Shown: positions 3,501 through 32,206 of the stretch, one piece after another
How positions within the stretch are numbered: position 1 is the first letter of the stretch
Layout of the letters: each line of letters begins with the position of its first letter
NCBI RefSeq assembly: GCF_003344865.1
Contig: NZ_CP031165.1
Location: 310,001-374,000 of the forward strand
From: Euzebya pacifica
GTDB lineage: Bacteria; Actinomycetota; Nitriliruptoria; Euzebyales; Euzebyaceae
Direction: 5' to 3'
DNA length: 64,000 nt
The notes under the pieces: generated by a model
What the model was told of the DNA's origin: nothing
The model's database searches: none
What the model saw: only the letters and a program-made list of their open reading frames with translations
Program-made: the position numbers and the translations under genes

Positions 3501-4271
3501 CTAGACCTCCGTCCAGACTTCGACCCCATGATCGCGGAGTCTGTCCCCGTAGTAGTCCTGCCGACAGTTGTCGGGATCTAATAAGGCCAAAGCGCTGTGC
3601 TCCGACCGAGGAAGCATGGCGGCGGCCAACGCGGGTGGAATAAGGTCGAGATCGCATGAGGCAAGCACAACCGTGTATCCGGCAGCTGCGGCCGATATCA
3701 GATCGGATGCCAGCATGGTGTCGACCATTTTTTGCCTTGTCTGTTTGAATACTTGGGCATTGCTGGCGCTACATCCATCCGAAGAGCAAGTGGTGGTGGG
3801 GCGACGAGTGAATCGCGAGGCGAGGTGGGCAGGGCAACTACTGGAGTCCTTCGCTCCGCAAACCGCTGCCAACCCGTCCACGTCCTTTCGGATTCTGGGC
3901 GAACCGCGGAGTTCGCGGACTGTGTCTGGCCACCGAATGCCTGCTTGGCCGATGGGGCCTGATGCCAATTCAATTACGCCGCCGATGACCGTTCGGGAAT
4001 CCGGTCTAAGAAATGGAAAGAGGGTTCTATTGGTCAGCGTTGCGGCAACTTCTGAGCCGGCTCGAGAAAGGACGCCTCCCGAGAACCATCCCCCGTAGAG
4101 CCTGACGGTCAAATGGGCCAGATCTGTTACCTCTCGAACGACGCAGTCGATAAGATCTGTGATTTCTATGCCAGCTTTGGCCCGGCTTGCGGCGTCCAAG
4201 TCGTAGTTGTCGTAGTCAACTAGGAGAACGGCCTGCCCTGGGTCACTCAGGTGCAGGGCCATGGCGCTCAT
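3501..4271 (-). CDS. NYN-domain (PIN-like) putative nuclease
   Basis: 256-residue protein of the NYN/DUF88 group, PIN-like folds usually predicted to cut RNA. Visible signatures are the N-terminal VLLVDYDNYDLD (residues 15-26, metal-binding Asp and Asn) and the central KMVDTMLASDLI segment followed by VVLASCDLDLIPPALA, the C-terminal acidic motif of the fold. Between them lies a cysteine-rich insert with pairs spaced CSSDGC, which could bind zinc as in some related proteins. The start at 4271 overlaps the end of pglX by 29 bp; an internal ATG at 4262 is an alternative. The STAND gene begins 2 bp after its stop, so the two are almost certainly co-translated. Coupling of a nuclease effector with the STAND ATPase is inference. 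Confidence 0.75.
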   Translation of the reverse strand: MSAMALHLSDPGQAVLLVDYDNYDLDAASRAKAGIEITDLIDCVVREVTDLAHLTVRLYGGWFSGGVLSRAGSEVAATLTNRTLFPFLRPDSRTVIGGVIELASGPIGQAGIRWPDTVRELRGSPRIRKDVDGLAAVCGAKDSSSCPAHLASRFTRRPTTTCSSDGCSASNAQVFKQTRQKMVDTMLASDLISAAAAGYTVVLASCDLDLIPPALAAAMLPRSEHSALALLDPDNCRQDYYGDRLRDHGVEVWTEV

Positions 4272-7200
4272 GTTCTGAGTTGAAGAAGGACTCGTAGAAG
4301 TCGCCGAGGCGTTGGCCGTAGGTTTCGTCTAGGTCGTTGTGCCACTGCTTGAGCCAGGGGACGAGTTCGGCGAGGCCGGCGAGGAGGGGGCGGAGTTCGT
4401 CTGACTCGGCGGCTTCGGACTGGCGTTGGGTGTAGTGGGCTGCTAAGGCTTGGGCTTGTTCGAGGTGGTTCCAGCCGGCCCAGCCGATGACGGGGCTGGA
4501 GTCCTCGCCGATCCTGGTGTCGGGGTAGAGGATGAAGCGTTCCTTGGGGACGTCGAGCTTGCCTCTCAGCTTCCAGTAGTTGGTCTTGGCGAAGTCGCTG
4601 GACTTGTACTTGGGGGGCACGGGGATGGCGTCGAGGCCCTGGTGCTTCTTCTCCAGCGCCTTCTCGTCATCTGACAGGTCGTCGCGGGCGTCGATGACGT
4701 CCTCGGCGCGTTGGAGGTCCCACGTCTCCTCCCAGGCCTTGCGCTTCTTCAGCCCCGTTGCCTTGTAGCGCAGCTCGGACAGGTAGGGGACGGCTTCGTC
4801 GAGCACGAGCTTGCGGACCAGCTCGGCCAAGTCCACATCGACGGCGTCGGTGTAGAGCTGGGCGGCCTCCAGAAACTCGGCGTTTCCGCGGAAACGTTCG
4901 GCGAGGCGAGCCGTGGTTGTCAGCTCGGCGTCCCAGACGTCAGGCGATTCCAGCCGGTCGAGCAGCCACGAACGGAGGGCGTCCTTGGCGAGGTCCTCCC
5001 AAGAGTCCCAGTTCCAGCGGCGCTTGTACTCCGGCCGCTCCATGAGGTTGATCGCCCGGTCGGACTCGATCAGCGCGATCCGCCGCTCGACCAGCTCGCG
5101 GTACTCGGCTGGCCAGTGGGACGGGAGCTCGGTGATGGGCGTGGATCCGTGGCGCTCGAACCACGTCGGCTCCTTCTCGCCCGCCGCCACCTGGCGGGCG
5201 AGGATGATCTCGAACGCGCGCTCGCCCCTGTTGAGATCGGGGATGGAGTCGGGGTCGGCGGTTAGTGGGGCCTCGGTGATGCCGTAGTGGGCGTAGGTGG
5301 ACCAGTCGAGCTCCTCCTGAAGCGCCACCATGCGGCGCCGAAGGTGTGCGACCCGCTGCTCGGACTGGTTGAGGGCCACCCGGGTTGGGGCTGCCTGCTG
5401 GATGAGGGTTTCGGGAAGGGCTGCGGCTAGCTGTTGGGACAGGATGTCGAGCTGTGTGGCCAGATCGGTCGGTGCGGTTCGCGGGATGGGGAACTGCTGG
5501 AGCTTGGTGCCGTCGAACTCGTACCGGTCGCCCCAAACGGTCTTGCTCAGCCGGGCGCCCTCTTGGCCAACCTTGTCGCCCCCCTTGGGGTAGAAGACCT
5601 GCTTCATCCAGAAGCAGGCGGTGGAGCTGTTGAGGAGGCCGAGAAGGCGGAGGTGGTCGGCCTCCGTGGCGGTCTCGGGGAGCTTGATGACCGGCGCCGA
5701 GTGCCGACAGATCGTCCCCGAGGGCAACAGCACAAAGTGATTGTGCGTTGCGACGAGGGGAAACGCGATGGTGTGGTCGCCGTTCCAGAGCTTGTCGCGT
5801 CGAAACTCACGCCACTCATACCAAGCGACGTCTGTTTCGGGAAGCGGGACGCCGAAGAGCTTGCGCGAAAGCAGTCGGTGCTTGAGGGGCCACAGTTGGC
5901 ATTGAGACGTCCAGGGCAACTCGTTGAAGGGCACAAGCGCGGAGGGTCGAGATTCTTCGTACGGCCAGATCTGAGGGCTGGTCTCTGCAACGGCCCAGTC
6001 TCGGACGGCATCGCCAAGCAGGGTGGGTACGCCGGTGCTGGTCCGTGTGGCGAAGGCTGCGTCTTCACCGGTAATTCCGACAGACCCCACTTGTGCGCGC
6101 TGACCAAGCCGACTTGTGACGCCTTGGTTGATAGCCGCTAACACCGCGGGGGCCGCGCCACCTTGCAGGCTCCAAGGGTGTGTGCCATAGCTCTCCCGAT
6201 TGGCATCTTCGCTGCTCGTGTACTCGTCCTCCCTGCCGGCGACCTCGATACTTCCGAGGATGGAGGTCCAGACCTCGCCGCGGGCCGGATCAGTGGGCTT
6301 GCCGGGCTCGCCGCGAATGCCCAAGACGGCGCGGACGGTGTTCAGCACGGGCGCCTGACGGCGGCCGAACAGGATCACCGTGGGGGTCCCGTGGCCAGGG
6401 ATGTAGGCCCCTGACGTGTCGATGACGTGGGTGAGGTCCCGTTGGGGGAGCCACTCCTGGATCAGCTTCTTGCCGAACTCGCGCTTCATGAACGAGTTGG
6501 CGGTGATCATCCCTACGTAACCAGCCGGGCCATCCGACGAGGCGGCCGCGGCCAAGTCCCAGAAGCGCTCGGTGAAGGGGACGCCCAGGGAGTACTGGCG
6601 GTGACAGGTCTCATACATCCCGCGGTACGCCTTGTTGAGCGCCTTGTCCTTGACCGTGATGTACGGCGGGTTGCCGACGACCGCGTGATACCGGCCGGCT
6701 TCGAGGATGCGATCGGCCTCGTCGGCGTCCTCGGTGGCGTAGTGGTGTTGCTTCAGCCGGTCGATGACGTCGTCGCCGCCGAACAGCCTCTGCTCGGTCG
6801 TGCCGTGCAGCAGTGAGTCGCCCGTCGCGAGGTTGATCCGGAACGCGGGCGAGTCCGCGAGCCGGCCGATCCCGCTCGCCTTCAGCGCGGCAACCAGCAG
6901 GCGGAACCGCGCCACCGCCACCGCAAACGGGTTGAGGTCGACGCCGTGCACGCCGTCCAGGGCTCGCTGCGCCAGCTCACGGGCGTGGGTACCGGGCTCG
7001 CGCTGCTGCCACAGGTTGAACAACCGGTGGAAGGAACCGAGGAGGAAGTGGCCGGACCCGCAGGTGGGGTCGATCATCTTCAGCTCGTCCAGCCCGAACT
7101 CCTCGATCGCCGGGTCGAGGGTGCGGTCGAGGATGAAGGACTCGACGAACTCGGGGGTCTGCAGCAGCGCGTAGGTCTTCTTCGCGTGGTCCGACAGGTC

Positions 7201-7764
7201 CTGGTACAGGTCACCGAGGAAGCGGCTGTCCATCTCCGGGTCGGTGAAGTCGAAGGCCAGCTCGCCGGTGGACTCGTCCAGGTCCCACCAGACGTCCAGC
7301 AGCGACCTCGCCCCATCCGCCGACGGACCGACCTGCCAAAGCGGGTTTGTGTCGGCGAACAGCCCCGCCGTCGCCGGGAGGGCCTGGTAGCGGCGGAACA
7401 CCTCCTCCAGCCACTCGCGGTCGCCCGCTTCGGGTCGGTCGGTCAGCCAGGCCAGCCGGAAGTCCTGGGCGATACGCCTGCGCTCGCCCGGGCCGGACAG
7501 CAGGGGGTCGTCGACCAGGCCGTTGTCCTCGCAGAACCGGACGAACACGCACCCCAGCACCCAGGCGACGGCGACCTGGTTGAGCAGGTCTTCCCGCCAC
7601 TCCACGTAGGACCGGTCGGTGCGGCCGGCCGACTGGGCGCGGGCGTACTCACCGCGCACGTGATCGTGCACCTCCTCCACCTCATCAGTGCGGGTGGTCA
7701 GGTCCTCGACCAGCGTCGAGGTCAGCGCCTTCAGACGGGTGAGCAGGGCGGAACGGTCGATCAT
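4243..7764 (-). CDS. pglX: BREX type 2 (Pgl) adenine-specific DNA methyltransferase PglX
   Basis: 1,173-residue N6-adenine methyltransferase that in BREX/Pgl systems marks host DNA as self. The SAM-binding motif I reads DPTCGSGHF (about residues 232-240) and the catalytic motif IV is NPPY (about 365-368), followed by [16 protein letters not shown], a stretch characteristic of type 2 PglX. The length and the N-terminal segment ([11 protein letters not shown]) agree with the family. The start ATG lies directly against the pglW stop at 7765, so the two genes form an operon. Downstream are the NYN and STAND genes instead of pglY and pglZ. The rest of a BREX type 2 set may lie left of the window or may have been lost. 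Confidence 0.92.
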
Positions 7765-10700
7765 CTAGGCAGCGGCTCCTGTGCGGTCGAGCCAGGCGGT
7801 GGGCAGGTGGGTCCAGTGGGCGGGGGTGATGACGGGGACGGGGACGCCGTCGACGACCGGCTTGGCGGTCGGGTCGGCGCCGGGCACCACCAGCGCCAAA
7901 CCGCGCAGCGCGTGGTCGCCGTCCTCGCGGGTCAGGCGCTCGCGCAGCCGGTCGACCAGGCCCATCTGCTCATACCGGCCAAGCAGGCCGATCCCGTCGG
8001 CGACCACGATCCCGTCGGTCGCCAGCAGGTCGGCCTCGACCCGGGCGGTCGCGTCCTCGGCCAGGCGGAGGAGGTACCTCCAGCCCTTGGAGGTCGGGTC
8101 GTTGTCGGCGTTCTCGAAGGCCGACCACTTGGCGCCCTTCTCCTGAGCCATCGCCCGCATGGTCGCCAGCAGCATGGCGTCAAGCCGGACGTGGGTGCCG
8201 CCGGTCGCGGTGGTCAGCCGGCGGATGGCGTCGTCCAGCGAGCGGTCCTTGACGGTGACGGTGACGAACCCGCCCTGGCGGACCAGCCGGTCGATGCGCT
8301 GGTCGAACACCTCGGTCGCGGCGTCCTTCGCCTCGACGCTGGCGTAGCTGGTGGACGGCCGGTGGCTGGTCATCGTCGACGGGTTCGTGCCGGCGGGGCA
8401 GTAGCGTCCCTCACCCCGATCATTGACCACCCAGGTCAGGCCGGCGTCGGCCGCGGCCAGCAGGGCATCGAGCTTCGGCCTCTCGGGCAGCGATGGGACG
8501 TCGGGGAAGCGGGTGGCGACGCGGCTTCGGAGCGCCTGCTCGGTCAGCCCGTTCCGGACCTGCAGCGAGACCCGCAGCAGCCGGACGGCGTCCACGGTCG
8601 AGAGGTCCCGCGGGTACAGCTCCAGCCGGCTGGACAGCGCGGCGGTGGCGGAGGCCTCGGCGGCCAGTCGGAGCAGGCGGGCGTCGGTGAGGGCGGCCGT
8701 CCCCTCCTCCACCTCGATCTCGCGGAGCCGGGTCACGGCCTGCTCGCGGGTGGGCAGGGGCGGCAGGTCGCCGGTCCCGCTCTTTTCGGTTTCGCCCTCT
8801 ACGGCTGATGCCTCCAGCAGCGGGGCGACGATCGTGTCGGCCTCCTCGCCCAGCAGCTCGGCGTAGGCGAAGCGGGTGTCGGCGCTGACGCCCTCTCCGC
8901 CCTCACCCGCTTGCTCCAGGGCGACCAGCAGGCCGTCGCCGGCGCGGCGGAACCGCATGCGGGGGGACTCCAGCTGCTGCTCGGCTTCCAGCGCCGCCCG
9001 GACGACGGCGCGGGCCCGGACCGAGCGGAGCGGCTCGTCGGCGGTCGAGCCGCGCAGGGTCAGCAGGGCGGCGGCAAGCTCGTTGCCGCTGGCCACCCCG
9101 CCGCGGCTGTCCAGCGCCTCTACCAGGGCGGTGCGGACGGCGGTCAGCTCGGGCACTCGCTTGACCCAGCGGGCGCGGGAGGACACCAGCGCCGCGGCGA
9201 CGGCGGCACGGTCCAGGCCGGTCCGCTCGGCCACGACGGCCTGCGAGGGCCAGCGATCGGTGTCGTGCCCCTCCCCCGGGGTTTGGGTACTGAGCGCCAG
9301 CAGCTCGCGGATGACCGTCTGAACGTCGGCGTCGGTGCGGGCCGACGGCAGGATCGCCTCGACCACGCGGTCGACACGAGCGGTCTGGGCGGACTCATCG
9401 CCCCTTACGGTGTGATCGGCGAGGGCGCTGGAGGGGGAGGCGGCGGCGTCCAGGTGGGCCGACAGCCGCTTGGCCAGCTTGACGATCTCCTTGCGGACCG
9501 TCGCGCCGACGCTGGACATGCGGGTCAGCTCGGCGGGGGGGATGACCGCCAGGTCGGTGACGGTCTCCACGCCCTGCCGGTCCAGGGCGCTGGTGACCCG
9601 CGGGGACAGGCCGAGCTCGGCGATGGTGGTGGTCTCGGTGACGGCGGACAGGTCGACCTCGGCGGCGGGCAGGCCAGGGCGGGTCGTGGCGGTGTCGTCG
9701 TCGGTGGTGCGGGTGGCGGGGGCGTCGAGGGCGGCGAAGACCCGCTGCCAGGCGGCCAGCATGTCGGCGGCGGTGTCGAACCGGCTGTCGGCGTCGCGGT
9801 GCAGGGCGGTGGACAGGAAGGCGGCGAGGGGCTGGCGGACGGCGGCGTCCATCACCTCGGTGGCCAGGGTCGGGGTGCGGACGTCTTCGCCGAGTAAGGA
9901 AGGGTCTGTGGTGCCGTCGCCCCAGGCGGGCCTCGTGCCCGTGGCCAGCTCGTGGAGGGTGACGGCGGCGGCGTACCGCTCGGCCTGGGCGTCCCACCGC
10001 TTGGTCGGCCGCTCGGGCAGGAACGGGTCGACGTAGCCGGGGGTGCCGGCGCGCAGGTCCTCCGGGTTGGCTCGCGAGAGGGAGAAATCGAAGAGGATCA
10101 GGTGCTTCTCGTGGTTGCGGCCGCGCTCGGTGAGCCCGGCATTGTCGGGCTTGATGTCGCGGTGGGCCAGCCCGTCGTCCTCCAGTGCCGTGACGGCCTC
10201 GAGCAGGTCGGTGCCCCAGCGCTGCAGGAGGTCAAGGCCCGGGGTGCCCTCCTTGGCGAGGAAAGCGGCGAGGGTCTGCTCGGCGGCCTCCATGCGCAGG
10301 ACGGTGCGGCCGGCGATCTCGGTGAGGCCGTGGACGGTGACGATGCGGCGGCGGTCCTTGACGGCGCTGGCAACCTCGAACTCGTCACGCAGGCGGTTGG
10401 CGGCGTCGGCGTCGCGGGCGACCTTGAGGACCTCGTGCCGGCCGTCGTCGGTGCGGGCGAGGAGGACCACGGCGGTGGAGCCGGCGCCGAAACGCTTGAC
10501 GACGGTCCAGGTGTCGTCCAGCAGGTCACCGGGCTTGGCGTCGAGGGGGTCGACGGTGTCGGCTGCGGTCAGCTGCTCCTCGGCGTGGGAGAGCTCGTCG
10601 AGGAACTCCGCGACCGTGACCAGCCGCATGGCGGGCTCGGCGTTGGTGGAGAACGGGATGAGGGTCTCGTCGAGGATCGCGGCCAGGCCGGGGTCGGCGA

Positions 10701-12081
10701 CGGCGGCGAGGGTCAGGTAGCCGGGGTCGCGCAGCTGGGCCTGCTTAGCGGCCAGGTCGGCGGCGGGGGGCTGGCCGGTGAGGATGAGGATGGCGAGGGC
10801 GCCGAGGGAGAAGATGTCGGCGGTGCGCGGGTCGGCGTCCGGGAGGGCCAGGACCTCGGGGGCGAGGTAGAGGTGCTCGTCACGGCTGACGTGCTCGCCG
10901 ACGTGGCGGGTGCCGGTTTGTTGTTGGTTGGTGGCCGTGGTGGTTGTGGCGGTGCCGGTGGCTGAGTGGAGGCGTGCGGCGGTCTGCCAGTCGCGGATCT
11001 TGAGGCGTGGTCGGTCGGGGGTGCCAGCGACGACGATCGAGCGGGGGGAGAGGGCGCGGTGGTACAGGCCGTGGCTGTGGGCGCTGCGGAGGCCCTCGGC
11101 GAGAAGGCGGACCAGGTCGAGCCGTTCGGCCAGCCCGAGGGAGTCGGCGTGCTCGGCCAGCCAGTGGTCCAGCCGGGTGGCGTTTGGGTCGTAGGGGAAG
11201 ACGACGGCCGGGCCGGACTGGGCGGCGACGAGGTCGCTGGGTCGGTCGATGGCGGGGTGGTCGACGCCCTGGAGGAGGGTGACCTCGCGCTTGGCGGAGG
11301 TGATGAAGGCGGCGCGCTCCTCATCGGACGTGGCCTTGGTCAGCGGGTAGAGGCGGATCCGCTGGTGGGTGTCGGGGAGGTTGGGGTGGGCGGCCTTGAA
11401 GTCCTGCCAGTCCTCCCCCTCGTCCAAGAGCTCGCCGAGGGTGAAGTGGCCGACCTTGCGGGCTTGGGCCGAGCGGCGGATGCCCGCCTGCTCCATGGCC
11501 TTGGCGACCATGGCCGAGGTGGGCCGGTCGACCTGCTTGCCGTAGCGGGGGTCGAGCTTGGTGAGGTGGGCCATGAGGCCGTCGAGGGTGCTGGGTCTGT
11601 GTGGGTAGTCAGCCTCGTCGAGGCCGAAGACGTGGTGGCGGCCGTCGGGGGAGAGCTTGCAGGTCAGGTTCTCGGCGTGGAGGAAGACCGCGGACTCGAG
11701 GTAGGGGAACCGGCCTTTGTGGGCCCTGGCGGCGCGGGTGTTCTCGAGCTGGGACTTGAGCTTCTTGGCCTTGAGGTTGGCCAGGTGGAGCGGGTTGTCC
11801 AGCGGCTTGGGGCGGGTGTGCTTCGGGCTGGTCCAGCGCCACTGGCCGGCGTCACCCTCGATCAGGCCTGGGTAGCCCTTGAGCTCGATCAGGACCATGC
11901 GTGCCGGGGTGATGACCAGCAGGTCGACCTCGTTGAGGCCCCCGCGGGAGTCGGTGAAGGTGAAGTTCGACCAGGCGCGGTAGGGCTCGGGCTCGGGCAG
12001 GCGCTTCTTGACGTAGTCGAGGCCCTGCCGCTCGTGCGGAAACTCCGATGGCGTCACCTCGACCCACACGAAAATGCCCAC
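7765..12081 (-). CDS. pglW: PglW: NERD domain plus tandem serine/threonine kinase-like domains
   Basis: 1,438-residue kinase of BREX type 2/Pgl phage-defence systems. An N-terminal NERD nuclease-like domain (about residues 15-110) contains VDLLVITPARMVLIELKGY. A first kinase-like domain has HRALSPRS near residue 340, where the catalytic HRD aspartate is absent, so it is probably a pseudokinase. A second kinase-like domain has an intact HRDIKPDN loop near residue 640 and DFS in place of DFG. A helix-hairpin-helix-like stretch follows near 820-865 (LGLSPRVTSALDRQGVETV), then a long helical C-terminal region. The start is a GTG; a second in-frame GTG at 12069 is possible. It ends directly before pglX. 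Phosphorylation of other Pgl proteins is known for the family, not shown here. Confidence 0.92.
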   Translation of the reverse strand: MGIFVWVEVTPSEFPHERQGLDYVKKRLPEPEPYRAWSNFTFTDSRGGLNEVDLLVITPARMVLIELKGYPGLIEGDAGQWRWTSPKHTRPKPLDNPLHLANLKAKKLKSQLENTRAARAHKGRFPYLESAVFLHAENLTCKLSPDGRHHVFGLDEADYPHRPSTLDGLMAHLTKLDPRYGKQVDRPTSAMVAKAMEQAGIRRSAQARKVGHFTLGELLDEGEDWQDFKAAHPNLPDTHQRIRLYPLTKATSDEERAAFITSAKREVTLLQGVDHPAIDRPSDLVAAQSGPAVVFPYDPNATRLDHWLAEHADSLGLAERLDLVRLLAEGLRSAHSHGLYHRALSPRSIVVAGTPDRPRLKIRDWQTAARLHSATGTATTTTATNQQQTGTRHVGEHVSRDEHLYLAPEVLALPDADPRTADIFSLGALAILILTGQPPAADLAAKQAQLRDPGYLTLAAVADPGLAAILDETLIPFSTNAEPAMRLVTVAEFLDELSHAEEQLTAADTVDPLDAKPGDLLDDTWTVVKRFGAGSTAVVLLARTDDGRHEVLKVARDADAANRLRDEFEVASAVKDRRRIVTVHGLTEIAGRTVLRMEAAEQTLAAFLAKEGTPGLDLLQRWGTDLLEAVTALEDDGLAHRDIKPDNAGLTERGRNHEKHLILFDFSLSRANPEDLRAGTPGYVDPFLPERPTKRWDAQAERYAAAVTLHELATGTRPAWGDGTTDPSLLGEDVRTPTLATEVMDAAVRQPLAAFLSTALHRDADSRFDTAADMLAAWQRVFAALDAPATRTTDDDTATTRPGLPAAEVDLSAVTETTTIAELGLSPRVTSALDRQGVETVTDLAVIPPAELTRMSSVGATVRKEIVKLAKRLSAHLDAAASPSSALADHTVRGDESAQTARVDRVVEAILPSARTDADVQTVIRELLALSTQTPGEGHDTDRWPSQAVVAERTGLDRAAVAAALVSSRARWVKRVPELTAVRTALVEALDSRGGVASGNELAAALLTLRGSTADEPLRSVRARAVVRAALEAEQQLESPRMRFRRAGDGLLVALEQAGEGGEGVSADTRFAYAELLGEEADTIVAPLLEASAVEGETEKSGTGDLPPLPTREQAVTRLREIEVEEGTAALTDARLLRLAAEASATAALSSRLELYPRDLSTVDAVRLLRVSLQVRNGLTEQALRSRVATRFPDVPSLPERPKLDALLAAADAGLTWVVNDRGEGRYCPAGTNPSTMTSHRPSTSYASVEAKDAATEVFDQRIDRLVRQGGFVTVTVKDRSLDDAIRRLTTATGGTHVRLDAMLLATMRAMAQEKGAKWSAFENADNDPTSKGWRYLLRLAEDATARVEADLLATDGIVVADGIGLLGRYEQMGLVDRLRERLTREDGDHALRGLALVVPGADPTAKPVVDGVPVPVITPAHWTHLPTAWLDRTGAAA

Positions 12082-16387: not shown

Positions 16388-16565
16388 ACTCATCGCTCCT
16401 TGGACTCTGGCCCACGGCATCCCCATGCCTGTTGGCCGACGACGTGCTGCACACGATGTAAACCTGCCCCGACGGTGCAGGGAAGGCTAGCGTGTCTGCC
16501 TGATTCCAGTTCGAGAGCGGCCACTACCGACCTCCCATGGCAGAACCCCAGTGATGTCGGACCTG
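16388..16565 (-). promoter_or_regulatory. Intergenic region upstream of TerY-P triad
   Basis: 178 bp between the sbcC stop and the vWA start, all genes pointing leftward. It holds the AAGGAG ribosome site of the vWA gene near its left end and probably a promoter for the triad, but read-through from the nurA-herA-sbcDC operon cannot be excluded. No clear hairpin terminator was seen. Confidence 0.35.
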
Positions 16566-19661: not shown

Positions 19662-19665
19662 GCCC

Positions 19666-22745: not shown

Positions 22746-22750
22746 GAGTC

Positions 22751-23704
22751 CTAGGGGGTCTGAGCGTTGAGCTGGAGTACGGCCGCGCGAACGGCGCGAA
22801 GTGCGAGGGCCGGGTTGCCTCCGACGCGGTGGAGGTGACGCTCCAGCCCCGCGATCGGCGTCAGGTTCACCGGTGCGCGGGGGTCACGATGGGGTGTTGA
22901 GGCGTAGCCCGGAAGCCATGCGCTGGCCTGTTCGAGGGTCTGTTGCGCGGTGCTGAGGCCGGCGAGCGCGGGCACCTCGATCCGCACGATGCCTGCCCAG
23001 GGGGACGCCCACGGGCCGCTGTCGCCGATCCGGAGGTAGCAGGCGAACGTGTCGGCGCCGATGGCGAAGATGCTGGTGCGTTGTCCGGGCTTGAGTTCGG
23101 GCACGCGGGCCCAGTGCTCGGGTGCAAGCATGCGACGGTGATGCGTCTTCACGTAGCCGATGACCGGTGTGCTTCGACTCTTGCGGATGTTGCTCAGGGG
23201 ACCGTCGAGGACGGTGAGCCACCCGTTGTCACACAGCATTTCGCCGAGCTTGCCTTCGGCGTCGCGCATCGCCCGCTGGAGTCGGTTGCGGGCGTCGTTC
23301 ATGTCCCCCGACACGGCGAAACCTGTCCAGCTCCACCCCTGCGACTGGGAGGGCAGGTCGATGGGGTAGCCACCGCACATGATGCTGACGCGTTCATGGG
23401 TGACGTAGTCGATGCGCAGGGGTGCATCGACCATGCCCAGCACGGCTCCTGTCGCCCAGCACCCGGCCAAGCCGGGCGTGACGGTGCCATCCGACTCCAT
23501 ACGGGTGAGTCGGGCCTCGGTGAGCATGGTGCCGTCCACGAACGCGATGCCGTCGGGCGGCCCGCACGGGGGCGGAGTGGTTGCGGTGAAGCTCCCGTCG
23601 CCCTCCACGATGTCGCACTCGACGTCCGCGGGTCCTTCCTGACCTGCGTTGAACGCAGCCCCGTAACCCACGTCGAACGGTTCGACGCCGTACAACCCTG
23701 GCAA
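22751..23704 (-). CDS. nurA: NurA-like nuclease
   Basis: 317-residue protein identified as NurA-like from two acidic motifs, IAFVDGTMLTEARL (Asp near residue 57) and WLTVLDGPLSN (Asp near 167), followed by VIGYVKTHHRRML with the conserved lysine near 186. This is the RNase H-like arrangement of NurA 5'-3' nucleases. The start is a TTG with AAGGAG 8 bases upstream. It is the first gene of the operon and directly precedes herA, the usual partner order. Overall similarity to characterised NurA proteins could not be measured; the call rests on motifs plus neighbours. Confidence 0.78.
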   Translation of the reverse strand: MPGLYGVEPFDVGYGAAFNAGQEGPADVECDIVEGDGSFTATTPPPCGPPDGIAFVDGTMLTEARLTRMESDGTVTPGLAGCWATGAVLGMVDAPLRIDYVTHERVSIMCGGYPIDLPSQSQGWSWTGFAVSGDMNDARNRLQRAMRDAEGKLGEMLCDNGWLTVLDGPLSNIRKSRSTPVIGYVKTHHRRMLAPEHWARVPELKPGQRTSIFAIGADTFACYLRIGDSGPWASPWAGIVRIEVPALAGLSTAQQTLEQASAWLPGYASTPHRDPRAPVNLTPIAGLERHLHRVGGNPALALRAVRAAVLQLNAQTP

Positions 23705-23844: not shown

Positions 23845-26157
23845 CTAGCCCCAGTGATCGCGTTGGTAGTCGATCATGTCGTCGCCGTGGAGCTGCTTCG
23901 TCGCGTTTCCCGTCCTGACCCAGAACTCGGTGGGTGATCCGCCTCCCTGATGGGGTTTGGCGAAGACGGGCTTGCCGGACGCCGCAACCGAAACGATGCA
24001 GACGTCGCGGCCCTCGGCCTCCTCGAAGTGGATTCGCACAGTGGCAGCCGTGTGCACCGACAGGTTCGCGTCGAGCACCTGTCGGAGGAACAGCTCGTAG
24101 CCGTCTCGGTTGGCCTTGCTGCCGAGCGTCTGCATGTCCAAGTCGAGGCCGATAACGTTTCCGTCGTCCTCGACCCCGACGAGCAGATTTCCACCCTCCG
24201 CGTTGAGGAACCCACAAACTGTCTTGACGATGACGTGCTCCATCTTCTTGTCGGCTTGACCAGCGCGAACGTTCCAGCGTGCGGTCGACTTGAACTCCTG
24301 CGTCTGCGACTCGCCGATGGTGATCATGTCGGCCAAAGTGGTGGAGGGGCTCGAGTGGGACCGCTCCTCCCACAGCCGCTCGAACCCGTCTCGGACTACC
24401 TCCGCGATAAGCGACCTCCGGCGCTCCAGGAACGTCATGTAGTCAAGTTGCTCCCAGCCCACGGGTAGGGCGTGCCAATAGGCCTGCCGCTTCACTCGCT
24501 CCGGTTCCATGGCCTCAGTCATCGCAGGCCAGTAGACGACCGGATCGTCGGCGCTGATGGTTGCGTTTTCGGGCCAGTCGAGGAACGCCATGTTGGCGAT
24601 GGCGTTCACGCGACGTGCGCCGCTGACACCTTCCTTCCCGAGGAAGGCCTTCGGGAACAGGTGGTGGCGTTCGATGGAACGTGGAGCGGTGACGTTCGGG
24701 TCCAGCAGCTCGCGGATCCGCAGGTCGCTGAACAGGGCCTCGGCGTCGAGGAGATTGAGCGAGGCCCAGTACGCGAAGAGGACTGGCGAGCGCGCAGAGG
24801 AAGTGTCCAGACGATTGGGTAGAGAGATCTCCCAGTAGTCCCGGGTGAAGTTCGCCCGAACGATGCGGTCGAGCTCGCCGCAGAAGGCGTCTGCGTCGCC
24901 TGGGTCCAGCGCCGCGACGCGCCCGAGGTCTGCCTCGATCTGGCTCTCCGGCGACGAGGTGTAGCGGCCAGTCGTGTGGGACATGAAGAACCACCTGGCG
25001 ATGACGCCGCGCAGTCGCTTGTGATCCAGCCCGAAGTCCCTCTTGCCGATCAGCCAGAGGATGTAGGTGAAGACGACCGCGTTCTCCGACGTGATCATTC
25101 GCCGGCTGCGAAATCCAGCGTGGGTCAGGCACTTGAGGAATTCGTGCCAGTTGGTCAGGTCGAGGACCTCGTCCTGTGCGTGTCGGAGTTCGTCGAACTG
25201 TTCGTCACGCCTCTCCTCAGACACATCGCCGGTCTCGAGATCCTTGCCTCGAAGGATGTTGTAGACGTGCTGCAGTCGGCCGCGCCGGAACGCAAGACCG
25301 ATTCCAGCGCGGAGAAGTTGGTCGGGACTCGGGTCGATGAATGGGTTCTTCGGTGAGGGCCCCTGAACGCCGGGGTCGACAGCATCGCGGCAGAACTGCT
25401 CGAGCTGACGACGACCCTTCTCCCAGTGCACCGACATCAAGGTGAGGATGAAGTCGGCTTGGTTCAGCTTGACGCCCTCGGAGTTGATGCGAACGAAGAT
25501 CTCTGCGACCTGCCCCTCGTCGGCCGCTGCGTTCAGCTCGATGACCTGAAAGCGAAAGTTCTGCAGGTCGTAGACGCGGTCGATCCTGTCCTCGAGTGCG
25601 TCCTCGTCTGCCTCGGTCAGATCGCCGTCCCGAGCCTCGGCGAGACGAGCGAGGAATCCCCGGACGGTGGGTCGATACCCGTTGTTCCACAGCGCAGTGA
25701 TGTCCGGTATGAACTCTGGGTCCTTCTCGATGGCCGCGTCCGTCACCTCGAAGGACTCGTCGCTCGGTCGGAAGGCGATACGAATGCGCTTCTCCTGGAA
25801 CGTCTTGGTCAGGACTGCCTGGCCGGTGAGGACCGCGTAGAGGGACGTGAGACGTTGCTGACCATCGACGATCAGCATCTTCGCCACACGTTCGCTGTCG
25901 CCCCCACCCACCTGTCGGGTACCGACATCGGCGCCGGTCTCCCAGAACATCAGCGTGCCGACTGGATAGCCGCGGTAGAGCGAGTCGAACAAGTCGCGGG
26001 TCTTTGCCGAGGACCAGACGAATGGCCGTTGGATGTCAGGAAGCGCGATGTTTCCGTGCTTGATGTCCTCGACCAAGTGGGTCAGGGAGTAGCCGGTGTC
26101 GCGGTAGAGCGTGGGGGTCAATGGGGGGCCTTCGGAGAAGCTGGGCGGGTACTGCAT
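23845..26157 (-). CDS. DUF262/DUF1524 (GmrSD-like) protein fused to AlbA_2 domain
   Basis: 770-residue multidomain protein. The N-terminal DUF262 module carries IALPDIQRPFVW and IVDGQQRLTSLY (near residue 97), the DGQQR signature of GmrS-type NTPases. A DUF1524-like His-Asn nuclease region follows near residue 494 (ERHHLFPKAFLG, then NAIANMAFLDW). The C-terminal 160 residues form an AlbA_2/Schlafen-type domain (ESQTQEFKSTARWN, NAEGGNLLVGVEDDG). GmrSD enzymes are type IV restriction systems that cut modified DNA; the AlbA_2 fusion may add nucleic-acid binding. It stands alone, 140 bp upstream of nurA and divergent from the radical SAM cassette. Function as a defence effector is inferred from family. 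Confidence 0.87.
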   Translation of the reverse strand: MQYPPSFSEGPPLTPTLYRDTGYSLTHLVEDIKHGNIALPDIQRPFVWSSAKTRDLFDSLYRGYPVGTLMFWETGADVGTRQVGGGDSERVAKMLIVDGQQRLTSLYAVLTGQAVLTKTFQEKRIRIAFRPSDESFEVTDAAIEKDPEFIPDITALWNNGYRPTVRGFLARLAEARDGDLTEADEDALEDRIDRVYDLQNFRFQVIELNAAADEGQVAEIFVRINSEGVKLNQADFILTLMSVHWEKGRRQLEQFCRDAVDPGVQGPSPKNPFIDPSPDQLLRAGIGLAFRRGRLQHVYNILRGKDLETGDVSEERRDEQFDELRHAQDEVLDLTNWHEFLKCLTHAGFRSRRMITSENAVVFTYILWLIGKRDFGLDHKRLRGVIARWFFMSHTTGRYTSSPESQIEADLGRVAALDPGDADAFCGELDRIVRANFTRDYWEISLPNRLDTSSARSPVLFAYWASLNLLDAEALFSDLRIRELLDPNVTAPRSIERHHLFPKAFLGKEGVSGARRVNAIANMAFLDWPENATISADDPVVYWPAMTEAMEPERVKRQAYWHALPVGWEQLDYMTFLERRRSLIAEVVRDGFERLWEERSHSSPSTTLADMITIGESQTQEFKSTARWNVRAGQADKKMEHVIVKTVCGFLNAEGGNLLVGVEDDGNVIGLDLDMQTLGSKANRDGYELFLRQVLDANLSVHTAATVRIHFEEAEGRDVCIVSVAASGKPVFAKPHQGGGSPTEFWVRTGNATKQLHGDDMIDYQRDHWG

Positions 26158-26308: not shown

Positions 26309-26644
26309 ATGGGCGATCTGCATTTGGGTGGATCCAAGGTCTCGCTGCGGGCGCACGCGCAGAGGGACGGACGGATCCTGCTCATCGCTGAAGCCACCGG
26401 CGAGGTGGTCCACACGTTCGAGGACCACGCCGAGGGGATGCAGTGTCTGACGAGCTTGGCCACGGCGTTGACCAGCCCCGATGCACGGACTCGCACACGG
26501 GTTGAACGCACGAGTCGCGCCCAGACCCTTCAGGACGACGGGGACGGTCGGGCCTACCGCGTTGAGGACATCCGACGGGTCCCTGCTGAGCGATCCCAAG
26601 GGCCCCTCCGAACCGTTCCCGACGGGGCTGCCCATGACTGTTGA
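26309..26644 (+). CDS. Hypothetical protein, first gene of radical SAM cassette
   Basis: 111-residue protein with no recognised domain. The N-terminal half (VSLRAHAQRDGRILLIAEATGEVVHTF) looks like a short beta-rich fold; the C-terminal half is charged and Arg-rich. The ATG at 26309 is preferred over one at 26186 because GAGGGG lies upstream at a suitable distance and the longer version would extend into the divergent promoter region. Its last codons overlap the start of the radical SAM gene by 11 bp, suggesting an operon. Function unknown. Confidence 0.6.
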   Translation: MGDLHLGGSKVSLRAHAQRDGRILLIAEATGEVVHTFEDHAEGMQCLTSLATALTSPDARTRTRVERTSRAQTLQDDGDGRAYRVEDIRRVPAERSQGPLRTVPDGAAHDC

Positions 26645-27512
26645 GGGGACAAACCGCGCGGACGAGCAACTGTCGCTCTTGGGAATGGAACAAGGGTCGG
26701 AAGGCCCCGAAGAGCTTGGCGGCGCACGGATTGCCTACAAGGACACGTCGACAATCCTCACGCGGGCCAGCGGGTTCATGTCCGACTACGACTTCACGCT
26801 CAACCCCTACCGCGGATGTGCGTTCGGTTGCCCCTACTGCTACGCCGCCTTCTTCACGCGGGACACGGCGGAGCAGGACTCCTGGGGACGTTGGGTGGAG
26901 GTCAAGTCCAACGCACTCGCGAAGCTGCGTCGCATGCGCACGCCTCTGGAAGGTGCCCGCATCTACATGAGTAGCGTCACCGACCCCTACCAGCCCATCG
27001 AACGCCATCTCCAACTGGTCAGATCACTGCTCGAGGAGCTCGTCAATCTCCAGCCGCGACTGGTTGTCCAGACCAGGAGCCCGCTCGTCACGCGTGATGT
27101 CGACCTACTCGGTCAGCTGCGGACAGTCCGCGTCAACATGACGGTGACCACCGACGACGACGAGGTTCGGCAGGCCTTCGAACCTCGGTGCTCCCCCATC
27201 GATGCGCGGTTGCGTGCCATCGCAGAGGTTCACGAGGCGGGACTCCCCGCCTCGATCACCATGACTCCTCTGCTGCCAGTCGCCGATCCGACGAGCTTCG
27301 CGCAACGCCTCCTGGCGACTGGAGTCACACATTTCGTCGTGCAGCCGTTCCACACCGGTCGCAGTCGGTTCGTGGCGGGGACCGGCAAAGCGGCGCTGGC
27401 CATGGTCGAAGAACGGTCGTGGACCCAGGAGCGCTACCGAGAGACGGTCGAGGTCCTGCGGGCACTACTACCGACACTGGACGAGGGACGGGAGGGGTTC
27501 GCACCAGCATGA
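26634..27512 (+). CDS. Radical SAM protein (SPL/Rv2578c-like)
   Basis: 292-residue radical SAM enzyme. The 4Fe-4S cluster motif CxxxCxxC is visible as GCAFGCPYCYA near residues 61-71, preceded by FTLNPYRG, as in the spore-photoproduct-lyase/Rv2578c group. SSVTDPYQPIE and later TMTPLLPVADP fit the barrel of that group. The reaction is not predictable; relatives include DNA-photoproduct repair enzymes and uncharacterised proteins. The ATG at 26634 begins shortly before the preceding stop, and its own stop overlaps the next gene start (ATGA). Three consecutive coupled genes imply one transcript. A nucleic-acid modification role is inference. Confidence 0.85.
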   Translation: MTVEGTNRADEQLSLLGMEQGSEGPEELGGARIAYKDTSTILTRASGFMSDYDFTLNPYRGCAFGCPYCYAAFFTRDTAEQDSWGRWVEVKSNALAKLRRMRTPLEGARIYMSSVTDPYQPIERHLQLVRSLLEELVNLQPRLVVQTRSPLVTRDVDLLGQLRTVRVNMTVTTDDDEVRQAFEPRCSPIDARLRAIAEVHEAGLPASITMTPLLPVADPTSFAQRLLATGVTHFVVQPFHTGRSRFVAGTGKAALAMVEERSWTQERYRETVEVLRALLPTLDEGREGFAPA

Positions 27513-29896
27513 AGGACGACCGGATTGTCGAGCTTCGAGGCGCCCTCGCGCAGGCAATCGTCAGGGGATGCCGGGAGCTCTTCGGAGGACGCCGCTGGTC
27601 ACGATTCGATCTGGCCCGCAGCCTGGAGGAGCTCTGGCTGCTCAGCCGGGGTGAGGACTGCTGCTACGACCGGCCAAGCATCGGGCTGAACTACGCGCTC
27701 TGGTACCAAGGGCGACGAGTCCAGGACGTGCTCCGCACGGTGGGGCCGTCGTGGGGCGACCGCCCAGTCGACACCATTGTCGACCTCGGTGCCGGAACCG
27801 GGGCGACGGCATGGGCGCTGGCGGTGGCGATGACTGGTGGACTCTCGGTCGGCCACCCCCGTGTAGTTCTGGTAGACGGCAGCCCGCCCATGTTGCAGGC
27901 GGCAGAAGCCCTCTGGGAGAGCCTGCAGCGCGACACCACCTTCGGTCCGGCGGCGCGTCGAATAGAGATCACGTTCGAGTGCACGACCTGGACCCGGCCC
28001 CCGTTCAGCGCCCCTGGTGCGGAGTGCATCGCCTCGTACCTCTTCGACCACTCGAGCCGAGCACGTCTCGGCGAAGTCGCTTCCGCCTTCGACCGAGCAA
28101 CCTCGACACTCGGTGTCCGACGGGTTCACCTGCTCTCAGCCAACGGCAAGCGGCCTGTTCTGGACGCGGTCGTCACGCGGTTGGGCGGTCATGGATGGGT
28201 TCCCCGCCCGGCTTCGCAGCACCCGCCATGGTGGACAGGTGCTGTTGAGGGCCTGGGAGATGCGCGTGAAGCAGTGCTGGCTGGCGTGCCGACCGATCTT
28301 CCGTGGCGGAACAAGGCCCCATCCTTCGATGGGGATTCCGTCGTCGCCACCCGGTTGGATCGGGAGGAGTTGGCCGTCGCCCCCGACCATCCTGTTGCTC
28401 CCTTCCAACCCGATCCCGCACAGGAACGAGCCTGCATCCCGGACGGCCGGCTGACGCTCGTCGTGGGGGCCGCAGGTTCCGGCAAGAGTCGCGTGCTCGT
28501 CGAACGACTCCACCGGACGCTCGAGACCAGTCGTGATGCTGCAGAGGTTCTCGTCACCACGTTCAACATCGACCTGCTGCACCAGCTGGGTCGCTGGTTC
28601 GCCGAGACGATCGATCCGACCGAGTGGGAGCGCCGCAAGGCCTGTGATGGTGACTTCACCTTCAGTGCGCGACATGACCTGCTGTCCCGACACCGTGTGC
28701 GGTTCCTGAACTGGGACAAGGTTCCGACGAGGCTCTTCGGTCAGAAGGGAAACGTCAACATGGACAGCGAGCTGCCGCTCGAGCGGAGGGTCCAGCAGCT
28801 GGCCGCACAGAACGGGTGGTCGCTGGACGAACCGGGCAACCGGACCGCCCTGCAGCCACAGTTCCTCCTCGCCGAGTTGCACAGGGTCATCTGGGGGCTG
28901 GATGCCAGAACGCTCGACGACTACCTCCGAGTGAACCGCGTGGGACGGCTGCTCCCGCTGCACGGCTTCCTGCGTCGGCGAGTCTGGGACGTGGTGATGG
29001 GCCCGGGGCACCCAGAAACCTTCAGTCACCGACGTATTGCGATCTCGCCGCTCGCCCAGCCCAAGGACGTCTTCGACCACGTGTTCATCGACGAGTGCCA
29101 GGACTTCACGCCTGCCGACTTCACGCTCGCTGCTCGGATGGTCGCGGATACGAGGAACCTCGTCGCGGTAGGGGACTCCGCTCAGTCGATGCATCTTGGT
29201 CCCGCGTATCGCCGACCGGGCCAGATGCCAGGCGCGAACGGACAGCGGCGGCTCTGGAGTCGGCACGAGCTGGACGCAACCTACCGACTGCCGCTCCGGC
29301 TGTGCGAGGCGATCATTCCGGTCGCACGGAAACTCGGGCTCGCTCGCGGTCAGACGCTCGCCGACGAGGTGGACCTTCTCGACACGGTCGACTTGCGGGC
29401 CGTCAGCAGCGCGCTCCTCGGAATGCGGCCGGTCGTCCTGGCCGGAACGGACGACGAGATCGTCAGTCAGCTGGCCGAGGTTCTCGCGGAGTACGAGCCG
29501 CTGTTCCATCAACGCGACGGAGCCGGGATCATCACGTTCGCTGACGGACGGCCCGTGCCGGAGCGCCGAATGGTCGAGCAGGCGATCCCCTCGTCGTGCA
29601 CGGCAGAGTTCCGTTCGATGCGTGCGATCAAAGGGCTGGAACGCCCGGCGGTGGTCTGGACCACAGGACTCGAACTGCCTACTCACGAATCCGCAGAACA
29701 ATGGATCTACACCATCCTCACGCGTCCCACCGCGCTGCTCGTTGTCGTGCTGTCCGACTTCATGGACCAAGTCGCCACGGACGTCATTGCGTCCCTCGAC
29801 CCTCGGCGCCTCATCCCGTGGACACCTGACGCAGAAGCAGCGCTGCGAACGATCCGTGACACAACTACGACCCAACCAGTGCCAACGGCCGGTTGA
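27509..29896 (+). CDS. SAM-dependent methyltransferase fused to UvrD/Rep-like helicase
   Basis: 795-residue two-part protein. The N-terminal part has a Rossmann methyltransferase motif IVDLGAGTGATAWALA near residues 89-104 and a following acidic VVLVDGSPPML. From about residue 310 a superfamily 1 helicase core begins: Walker A VVGAAGSGKSRVL, a motif II HVFIDECQDFTPADF near 524-538, motif III-like VAVGDSAQSMHLG, and a C-terminal RAIKGLERPAVVW. The ATG overlaps the radical SAM stop by ATGA. A frame open back to 27188 overlaps the radical SAM gene and is rejected. I know of no characterised protein with this pairing; a linked modification and unwinding step on nucleic acid is inference. Confidence 0.85.
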   Translation: MKDDRIVELRGALAQAIVRGCRELFGGRRWSRFDLARSLEELWLLSRGEDCCYDRPSIGLNYALWYQGRRVQDVLRTVGPSWGDRPVDTIVDLGAGTGATAWALAVAMTGGLSVGHPRVVLVDGSPPMLQAAEALWESLQRDTTFGPAARRIEITFECTTWTRPPFSAPGAECIASYLFDHSSRARLGEVASAFDRATSTLGVRRVHLLSANGKRPVLDAVVTRLGGHGWVPRPASQHPPWWTGAVEGLGDAREAVLAGVPTDLPWRNKAPSFDGDSVVATRLDREELAVAPDHPVAPFQPDPAQERACIPDGRLTLVVGAAGSGKSRVLVERLHRTLETSRDAAEVLVTTFNIDLLHQLGRWFAETIDPTEWERRKACDGDFTFSARHDLLSRHRVRFLNWDKVPTRLFGQKGNVNMDSELPLERRVQQLAAQNGWSLDEPGNRTALQPQFLLAELHRVIWGLDARTLDDYLRVNRVGRLLPLHGFLRRRVWDVVMGPGHPETFSHRRIAISPLAQPKDVFDHVFIDECQDFTPADFTLAARMVADTRNLVAVGDSAQSMHLGPAYRRPGQMPGANGQRRLWSRHELDATYRLPLRLCEAIIPVARKLGLARGQTLADEVDLLDTVDLRAVSSALLGMRPVVLAGTDDEIVSQLAEVLAEYEPLFHQRDGAGIITFADGRPVPERRMVEQAIPSSCTAEFRSMRAIKGLERPAVVWTTGLELPTHESAEQWIYTILTRPTALLVVVLSDFMDQVATDVIASLDPRRLIPWTPDAEAALRTIRDTTTTQPVPTAG

Positions 29897-30028
29897 GCCA
29901 GCGAGCATCCCCGGATGCTCCCCGAGTCGAAGGACACCAACCACGTTCTAAAGAAATCGACGTTTCGGACCGACGGTCGTTGTATTGGTCGGTGGAAGGG
30001 GTCCGCCGGGTTGGGAACTGGAGGGAAC

Positions 30029-32206
30029 ATGTCGCAACTCATGGCATACCGAGGCTGCTCTCGGCTGGAGTACCGGAACCAGAACATCAAGCTGCTCCGA
30101 GGGCTGGAGGGGGAACGAACTCGGTCGAGCTACCGAACGGTTTGGCTCGGCGACAACGTTCGAGATCTCCTGCGCCAAGATCCCAACCCGGTTGTGATCG
30201 CGGGGCTTGTCGATCGAGCGCAGACCCAGGTGCTTCCACTTCGACAGATGATCGTCATCGATCACGAGTTCACCGGCGACGTCCTGCGTCTCACGTTCGA
30301 GCTGGCCTCATACATCTCTGTGGGGGACGGCGGTCCCGTGCCGTTGACATCGTGGGCCGCCGGCCGCCCCGCTCCTCCAAGGTGCTACCTGTCGACCTTG
30401 GAGAACCCCGCGTTGCCCGTCCGGGTGCTCCGGGATCCCGAGGTGAGCCAACGCTGGAGGCAGGCGGTCGATTTCCTGGCCGCGTCGTGGGACTTCTCGT
30501 CCACCGGGTTCTTCCGGCTACAGGCGCCCGGGGCCGGTCTAGTCGGGCACGCCCGCGGCCCCGTTCTGGAGGCTTCGGAAGGGTCTCGAAGCTCGGTCCG
30601 ACTCGAGTCCTACAACCCTCACCTCCCCGAGGAGACATGGAGCGCGATGCGACTTCGGGTGGCAGGGAGTGGGAGCTTGGTCGAAGTGGAGGGCGGGGAC
30701 GTCCATCTGGACCGCGATGGCTTCATCGATCTGTCGCTGCGGCCCATGGAAGAGGGTCCAGGACAGCTGCAGATCCGGGTCGACCCGGACCCGCAGTTCT
30801 CCACCTACATCCCACTGACGGTCAAGGCCAGCCGTGACGTGACACGCAGGCATCACAAGACCGTCATGCTCGGGCGCGAGTGGGAACGCTGCCTCGATGG
30901 TCTTCGAACGACCTTGGATGATCGCACCACACTTCTGTCGGTGCTGAACCAGCTGGCTCAGGTGTTCCCGGACAGCGCTCCTCTCCAGCAACACCGAGGT
31001 CGCGTTCTGTACGACCAAGAGCGTTTCGTCGAGGCGAGGGAGGCCCTTGATCGATCCTTGGCGCTGCGCGAGGACTCTGCAACGGTGGCCTACAACCTGT
31101 TCGCGGCGCTCAAGCGTGGTGAACGCGCCGCATCAGCAGAGCTGCTCGGACGGCTGAATCTGTCCGTGCACAGGTTCTTCGAGGAGCTCCTTCGGATTGT
31201 GAGTGAACTCGACGAGTCGATGGCGTTGCACGTCGTCGAGGTCGGGTTCGACCTGTTCGACGACGACAAGCGGCATCGGTTGATTCGCTCTGCGGCAGCG
31301 GTCGTCCGCACCGAGTCCGGAGTCGTTCGGTTGGGAGATCTTTGGGGCATGTCGGCTCCTCTGGACGCACTCCGGTACGTCCACGAAGTCGCCGCCGACC
31401 AGTCCGACTGGCACCGTGCTAGCTGCCTGGTCGTCGAGATGGCTGAACGGATCGGCGGACATTCTGTTGCGACGGGCCATGCTCGCCGCATCGTGCGTTG
31501 GCGAGGCGGTGCTCCCGCTGATGCGCTGGCGTGCTGGCACGCCTACGGACGGTCGATTCGCGATCCACGCGAGAGAACTGCCGTGCTGCTCGACAACGCC
31601 CGTGGCGTCGTTGCAGACCACCCAGGAGCACCCGAGGGGATCGAGTTCGCACTCCTCGCAGCAAGTCGAGCTCTCGACTTGGGGCAGATAGAAGTTGCCT
31701 CGCAGGCCCTCCCCATCGCCGCACACCACATCGCGGTCGGCGGCTTCACCGGAACCGAGGTTCAGGGTCGTCTCGACGCTCTCCGGGTCTCTCTGGAGGC
31801 CGCACTCGCGCAGTGGACTGTGGTGGAGGACGCGACCGAAGCCCGACGCCGTGACCTGTCGGTGCGACTGCGGCCGTTGCTGAGCGGTCGCACTCTGGCG
31901 ATCCTCGGCAGCCCGACCGCTCGAGCCGACGTGGACCAGATTGCGGCAGACCTCGGCGTTCGGGTTCTGTCCTTCCCCAGCACCGTGGAGAACCCGGTGG
32001 ATGAACGGCGTCTCCGTGCGCTCTCACCACAGGGGCTGATCGTGGTCGCACTCTGGGAGCACATGAATCACCTCAAGGCACCCACGAAGGAGTGGTTGAA
32101 GCAGTACGACGTCCCGTTCCTCCAGATTCGTGGCACTGGGGGGTTGTTGATCGAAGAGCTTTGGGAGCGATTGGGGCGCGATGGCGTCCCTCTGGCGGTT
32201 CGTTAA
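30029..32206 (+). CDS. TPR-like protein with DUF2325-like C-terminal domain
   Basis: 725-residue protein of unknown function. The N-terminal half shows no recognised domain (YRGCSRLEYRNQNIKLL). The middle is helical and TPR-like (DQERFVEAREALDRSLAL). The C-terminal 100 residues resemble DUF2325: RTLAILGSPTARADVDQ, later LIVVALWEHMNHLKAPTKEW and VPFLQIRGTGG, in which a conserved basic/aromatic pattern sits at the end of a Rossmann-like fold. The ATG at 30029 is chosen for the adjacent GGAGGG; an in-frame ATG at 29915 would add 38 residues without such a site. It lies 132 bp after the helicase gene, same strand, and is probably in the same operon or under a close second promoter. Confidence 0.65.
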   Translation: MSQLMAYRGCSRLEYRNQNIKLLRGLEGERTRSSYRTVWLGDNVRDLLRQDPNPVVIAGLVDRAQTQVLPLRQMIVIDHEFTGDVLRLTFELASYISVGDGGPVPLTSWAAGRPAPPRCYLSTLENPALPVRVLRDPEVSQRWRQAVDFLAASWDFSSTGFFRLQAPGAGLVGHARGPVLEASEGSRSSVRLESYNPHLPEETWSAMRLRVAGSGSLVEVEGGDVHLDRDGFIDLSLRPMEEGPGQLQIRVDPDPQFSTYIPLTVKASRDVTRRHHKTVMLGREWERCLDGLRTTLDDRTTLLSVLNQLAQVFPDSAPLQQHRGRVLYDQERFVEAREALDRSLALREDSATVAYNLFAALKRGERAASAELLGRLNLSVHRFFEELLRIVSELDESMALHVVEVGFDLFDDDKRHRLIRSAAAVVRTESGVVRLGDLWGMSAPLDALRYVHEVAADQSDWHRASCLVVEMAERIGGHSVATGHARRIVRWRGGAPADALACWHAYGRSIRDPRERTAVLLDNARGVVADHPGAPEGIEFALLAASRALDLGQIEVASQALPIAAHHIAVGGFTGTEVQGRLDALRVSLEAALAQWTVVEDATEARRRDLSVRLRPLLSGRTLAILGSPTARADVDQIAADLGVRVLSFPSTVENPVDERRLRALSPQGLIVVALWEHMNHLKAPTKEWLKQYDVPFLQIRGTGGLLIEELWERLGRDGVPLAVR

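Follow-up and report, generated by a model that had tools for sequence, protein, structure and literature searches.

Does the run of four genes at positions 26309–32206 in a stretch of Euzebya pacifica DNA form a single defence system, or do only some of these genes belong together? The stretch, referred to here as the window, is 64,000 nucleotides long and covers positions 310001–374000 of the 5.80-Mb contig NZ_CP031165.1 (genome 6.37 Mb; G+C 69%). An earlier note on this DNA had grouped a small open reading frame (ORF; gene 1), a radical S-adenosylmethionine (SAM) gene (gene A), a methyltransferase-helicase gene (gene B) and a gene for a tetratricopeptide repeat (TPR) protein (gene 4) into one cassette. 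This cassette is a conserved core of two genes, A and B, with two private neighbours. Since the fixed pair recurs in distant bacteria and is usually found among anti-phage defence genes, it is a strong candidate, as judged from sequence, for an undescribed defence-linked system of nucleic-acid processing. The features of the core are as follows.

26634..27512, + strand: gene A, radical-SAM protein of 292 aa (PF04055; predicted radical-SAM barrel)
27509..29896, + strand: gene B, methyltransferase-like domain plus superfamily 1A (SF1A; UvrD-like) helicase, 795 aa (PF00580; relatives in 18 other loci)
27509..28369, + strand: N-terminal, putatively SAM-binding domain of gene B, residues 1–287 (VIA-align; invariant columns)
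28403..29830, + strand: helicase domain of gene B, residues 299–774 (alignment motifs; VIA-align; profile search)

The ORF layout is as the earlier note had described it. Gene 1 (26309–26644) overlaps gene A (from 26634) by 11 bp, genes A and B share an ATGA overlap at 27509–27512, and a gap of 132 bp separates the end of gene B at 29896 from the start of gene 4 at 30029.

Genes A and B as a fixed pair

A search of plasmids with gene B returned one relative, on the conjugative plasmid pRUNSL02 of Runella slithyformis (Bacteroidota), where it immediately follows a radical-SAM gene and is joined to it by ATGA. The pair is present too, cut by the contig end, on a contig from a metagenome-assembled genome (MAG) of the Euzebyaceae, which belongs to the same order as the window's genome. 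A first scan of genome contigs with a single sequence gave no match; an alignment of three gene B sequences (window, Runella and Euzebyaceae) was used next and identified 17 loci in a species-level genome collection, one of these being the Euzebyaceae contig. Immediately upstream of gene B there is a radical-SAM gene in all 17. Including the Runella plasmid and the window, A is directly followed by B at 19/19 loci, while genes 1 and 4 are present at none of the others. Because gene B alone served as the query, the pairing is not built into this result. Had the genes been mostly apart in other genomes, the earlier note would have given up the cassette; this is the case for genes 1 and 4, neither of which is present at any other locus or was found anywhere else, and is not the case for A and B, which are always together.

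At loci with clear starts the spacing between A and B is between -4 and +27 bp, and the ATGA coupling recurs in the window, in Runella and at locus L016. Pairwise protein distances of A and B covary (Mantel r 0.92), with none of 2000 permutations reaching this r. There is one module-type radical-SAM gene per genome in the window's own genome and in 11 further genomes, although it is broken at L025; other COG1533-type paralogues reach no more than 119 bits, compared with 360–540 for the module radical-SAM. It is near certain that A and B are a fixed pair.

The hosts of the pair are Bacteroidota and Actinomycetota, plus MAG contigs labelled Planctomycetota and Gammaproteobacteria. As the last two assignments come from MAG contigs, which may be misbinned, only two phyla are counted as certain. 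The copies at L016 and L023, on MAG contigs labelled Phycisphaerales and Gammaproteobacteria, are Bacteroidota-like, pointing to possible misbinning or recent transfer, and L023 is nearly identical to a Flaviaesturariibacter copy in the tree. Within the Actinomycetota the pair is rare (2 of ~430 genomes). In Niabella ginsengisoli (L025:9018-12261) frame changes interrupt both genes of the pair, through either joint decay or assembly errors.

Radical-SAM relatives scoring far below the paired group were found on Paenibacillus plasmids (47% and 43%; unpaired), in Staphylococcus (36%; unpaired) and in a Priestia record without annotation. No relative was found in the viral contigs searched. An unpaired radical-SAM relative on a Staphylococcus saprophyticus plasmid (L007:5281-8890) lies within an alkylation-repair set, made up of a DNA glycosylase, an Ada-type protein, a methylated-DNA cysteine methyltransferase and a 2-oxoglutarate (2OG)-Fe(II) oxygenase.

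The radical-SAM protein

Gene A was correctly labelled as a radical-SAM gene (PF04055, E 2e-16). Its CxxxCxxC motif is at residues 62–69, with C62, C66 and C69 invariant in 18 sequences, and it is 50–61% identical to the partners at other loci. The nearest named families are PA0069, Rv2578c and spore photoproduct lyase (SPL), which are of the COG1533 type. The best named match is to the PA0069 model NF033668, at 127 bits against a cut-off of 360, and the Pfam SPL model PF20903 gives 14.3 bits against a cut-off of 27.

Models of A and B were made with AlphaFold2 from homologue alignments, leaving out the Runella plasmid sequence (mean pLDDT 77 each). Gene A is predicted to fold into a radical-SAM barrel. 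For this model Foldseek placed spore photoproduct lyase first and VIA-align gave SPL, NifB, viperin and lipoyl synthase as tied (Z 12.3–12.8), with RlmN also among the structural matches. Gene A resembles SPL and the PA0069 family in its CxxxCxxC radical-SAM barrel, but is below both curated cut-offs, belongs to a group of its own that is tied to a helicase gene, and gives no indication of the SPL substrate.

The helicase and its N-terminal domain

The methyltransferase-helicase label of gene B was sound, with a clear match to UvrD-helicase (PF00580, E 2e-13, 51.1 bits against a cut-off of 23) and a weak one to a methyltransferase (PF13649, E 5e-4). A UvrD-helicase match is present in 17/17 aligned gene B members. 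All motifs of SF1A helicases are conserved, among them Walker A GxAGxGKS, DExQD, YRLPxR, KG(L/M)E and YTIxTR. In the predicted structure, residues 299–774 align to UvrD (2is4) with a VIA-align Z of 23.3, and a profile search with gene B finds PcrA/UvrD/Rep at E 7e-18. The likeness to the UvrD/PcrA/Rep helicases extends to all core motifs and to the fold (Z 23). Gene B differs from these in that it is not a PcrA/UvrD orthologue (TIGR01073, 29.7 bits against 911), carries a SAM domain and lives in accessory islands.

The N-terminal domain of the model (residues 3–287) best matches human METTL17 (8csp chain 7), with a VIA-align Z of 18.6 over 246 residues and a root-mean-square deviation of 4.2; the next structural match is bacterial Hen1, at Z 15.7. 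METTL17 is an assembly factor of the small subunit of the mitoribosome, and bacterial Rsm22 is a protein of unknown role. The invariant residues of the domain are D92-L-G-x-G-x-G98, D123, CYDR52-55 and D180, of which the DLGxGxG and D123 are residues of the SAM site. An hhalign comparison with bacterial Rsm22 gave support at motif I only (probability 60%), and a PF09243 search of the window's genome (E<=1e-3) found another gene and not gene B. By its predicted fold the domain is Rsm22/METTL17-like, while by sequence it is not a member of the Rsm22 family. The resemblance is one of fold and of the DxGxGTGAxxWA motif I; the differences are the failure of PF09243, the fusion to a helicase and the lack of a four-cysteine [4Fe-4S] site. 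In METTL17 four cysteines bind the [4Fe-4S] cluster (PMC11046306). These four are absent from the N-terminal domain of gene B, in which the sole invariant cysteine is C52.

Defence genes around the pair

GmrSD (PF03235) and bacteriophage exclusion (BREX) genes (PglW and PglX) had been reported near the cassette, and both are there. The divergent neighbour of the pair in the window is a GmrSD-Schlafen fusion gene; PglW/PglX are 14.5 kb away, and PglY is further left.

23845..26157, - strand: GmrSD_N fused to Schlafen AlbA_2, divergent neighbour (PF03235 E 2e-34, PF04326 E 3e-16)
4243..12081, - strand: BREX-2/Pgl genes PglX (4243–7764) and PglW (7765–12081) (NF033451, 1551 bits, and NF033442, 1352 bits, both over cut-off)

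In Flavobacterium urumqiense (L019) the pair is inside a BREX-1 gene run with all genes on the same strand, in the order BrxC, PglX, GmrSD-like, small gene, A, B, helix-turn-helix, PglZ and BrxL. At L024 it follows McrC-like, PglZ, BrxL, kinase and JukA-like genes, the JukA link being a resemblance to a gene of L017, and at L011 it ends an operon like that of the methylation-associated defence system (MADS). LmuB is near the pair at L014 and a phospholipase D (PLD)-helicase at L012. Type I restriction-modification (RM) genes are near it at L013, L017, L018 and L026, and a GmrSD-like gene is also found at L023. Defence genes are present at 11/17 loci with usable flanks, the window included.

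Proteins from the flanks matched 302 PADLOC families at E<=1e-20 and those from control regions matched 29, a roughly tenfold contrast that is not one of gene counts, since PADLOC families overlap. The flank set consisted of 116 proteins of at least 200 aa from 14 loci, omitting those longer than 1500 aa and one secreted-looking protein, and the control set of 110 proteins encoded in ten other 20-kb stretches of these genomes. The link of the pair to defence, for which the earlier note had proposed a test of enrichment, is well supported.

BREX genes are present at 3/19 loci (L019, L024 and the window), with different or no defence neighbours at the others. The pair is not conserved with the BREX core genes and was therefore rejected as a BREX core component. 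It shares operons or islands with BREX of types 1 and 2 at these three loci and with MADS at L011, but most copies have neither nearby. That the neighbours change while A and B remain constant suggests that the pair is an add-on and no fixed component of a single system.

The order of genes at L011:39-9019 is a 430-aa gene, MAD7, an 1831-aa protein ending in a MAD8 ATPase, a PP2C phosphatase and the pair. Similar genes of 310–319 aa are found directly upstream of the radical-SAM gene at L017:8062-9021 and L024:8096-9028, and the C-terminal half of the one at L017 matches JukA. It is possible that this upstream gene is a third partner in one branch.

Comparison with named systems

Membership of a named PADLOC system was rejected because PADLOC-DB 2.0.0 has no family for gene A at E<=0.01. 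For gene B this database gives helicase-motif and short methyltransferase-motif matches only, and no full-length helicase model. Gabija (GajB) and other UvrD-type proteins in PADLOC share the UvrD-type motor (E 1e-11 to 1e-5, helicase motifs only), but the pair has no GajA-type partner, and a radical-SAM partner is in its place. Scans of Pfam and NCBIfam gave no entry describing the pair. The text of a 2026 BREX survey does not contain 'radical', 'photoproduct' or 'UvrD', and because the pair is absent from it, the possibility of a known BREX accessory was set aside. There was no mention of the pair in the open-access literature searched. The suggestion that these genes fit no named defence system is thus upheld for the pair in PADLOC of 2023, Pfam, NCBIfam and the papers searched, with a later description elsewhere being possible given the open-access search and the date of PADLOC. 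Any novelty lies in the gene and domain architecture, rather than in a proven activity.

The private neighbours and other genes nearby

26309..26644, + strand: gene 1, small ORF outside the conserved core (coding signal in 5' half only)
30029..32206, + strand: gene 4, TPR protein outside the conserved core (TPR matches; final gene before the syntenic backbone)

Gene 1 has a normal coding bias in its first half and a weak one in the 3' half, belongs to no family, and has no relative in plasmids or at other module loci. With the coding signature confined to the 5' half and no relative found, this ORF may be small or in decay. Gene 4 had been called a DUF2325-like TPR protein. It does have TPR matches, but the DUF2325 identity was dropped, since PF10087 has no match in it even at E<=10. 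No relative of gene 4 was found in 296 actinobacterial genomes, plasmids, viral contigs or other module loci. Synteny with a sister species restarts at ~32258, directly after gene 4, which places the cassette at the right edge of a variable region.

The other genes noted here are on the - strand. The consecutive genes at 16566–23704 are NurA, HerA-like, SbcD/Mre11-like and SbcC/Rad50-like. Together they are an end-resection set of the archaeal type, here next to BREX-2 in the genome of an actinobacterium; the HerA-like protein also resembles MAD8. A VWA protein, a PP2C phosphatase and a kinase with helix-hairpin-helix at 13026–16426 have the look of a TerY-P-type triad. The fusion of the GmrSD N-terminal domain and Schlafen AlbA_2 at 23845–26157 is a single protein of 770 aa. 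Near PglX, at 1216–3657, is a NACHT-type NTPase with a pentapeptide-repeat region, identified by weak matches only. PglY of BREX-2 is at L037:274-3918 (genome C1, ~300274–303918, - strand). Between it and PglX/PglW are a transposase-like gene (window 59–994) and an 1827-aa SF1 helicase-like protein.

Possible functions of the pair

The best explanation, with roughly an even chance of being right, is that the pair is a mobile two-gene add-on of larger defence systems that acts on nucleic acid. The helicase half of gene B would translocate along and unwind nucleic acid, most likely invader DNA or replication and repair intermediates, while the Rsm22-like domain would bind SAM and contact the exposed strand. 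Gene A, from its coupled ORF, may then carry out a radical reaction on the exposed nucleobases, either modifying them or reversing a modification or lesion. The outcome would be altered treatment of that DNA by the host BREX, type I RM, MADS or GmrSD enzymes, presumably with an anti-phage benefit. We infer a complex of A and B from the DNA-unwinding class of the helicase, the two apparently intact SAM sites and the coupled ORFs. DNA is the probable substrate, because UvrD/PcrA/Rep are the nearest solved relatives and SplB-like enzymes have been linked to SOS operons and repair (PMC3765255). Marking, damaging, unmasking and repairing DNA are indistinguishable from sequence. Several points weigh against this explanation. 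The scanned flanks of 6/17 usable loci have no defence gene, and the pair may have reached its place among defence genes by hitch-hiking on islands that are mobile. Neither a nuclease nor a killing domain was recognised in A or B. The chemistry of gene A is unreadable from its fold, with matches tied across four enzymes, and the relation to Rsm22/METTL17 points to RNA as easily as to DNA.

The pair could instead be a DNA repair or damage-tolerance module, in which the helicase opens damaged DNA and an SPL-like enzyme reverses the lesion, and which is present in islands through mobility or because defence neighbours injure host DNA. The top matches, spore photoproduct lyase by Foldseek for gene A and UvrD/PcrA for gene B, agree with this, as do the SOS link of SplB-like enzymes (PMC3765255) and the alkylation-repair cluster around a distant unpaired relative on the Staphylococcus plasmid. 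However, gene A is below the SPL Pfam cut-off, the flanks contain defence genes rather than repair operons, and a core role in repair predicts neither the patchy spread in Actinomycetota nor a place inside BREX. Such a module is rather unlikely. A role directed at RNA or the ribosome is improbable; here the Rsm22/METTL17-like domain would bring A and B to rRNA or tRNA, which gene A would modify, as RlmN/Cfr do, altering translation in infection. The two best structural matches of the domain, METTL17 and the RNA methyltransferase Hen1, are consistent with it, as are the resemblance of motif I to bacterial Rsm22 and the presence of RlmN among the radical-SAM matches. Yet the Rsm22 cysteine cluster is missing, PF09243 does not recognise gene B, and DNA helicases are the closest relatives of the motor.

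It is very unlikely that the pair is a passenger of mobile islands with a function unrelated to defence or nucleic acids, such as modification of a protein or small molecule. The conjugative plasmid copy has no defence genes in view, and the neighbours at L016, L020 and L025 are ordinary, but several unrelated defence systems have genes that recur beside the pair, and two copies are inside defence operons. A four-gene cassette in which genes 1 and 4 are essential in this lineage is hardly credible and was rejected. While all four genes share a strand and the overlaps of 11 and 4 bp and the 132-bp gap are compatible with a single transcript, the conservation stops at A and B, and the 3' half of gene 1 has a weak coding signal.

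The add-on acting on nucleic acid can be put in a more specific form. The pair would then be a new kind of anti-phage system: the helicase, with its METTL17-like SAM domain, would unwind invader DNA and pass it to the radical-SAM enzyme, which would add a base modification or remove one. BREX, type I RM and MADS could each take up the pair as an exchangeable add-on. This form is offered tentatively, its chance being somewhat short of even. SPL-class radical-SAM chemistry would thereby, to our knowledge, make its first appearance in phage defence.

If the pair acts on nucleic acid in defence, SPL-class radical chemistry would join the known immune mechanisms. A METTL17/Rsm22-type domain, the catalytic role of which is unclear in mitochondria, would then be tied to a bacterial system that is open to genetics. 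Given its place within BREX and next to MADS and type I RM, the pair could also reveal what these systems do with phage DNA that is modified or damaged.

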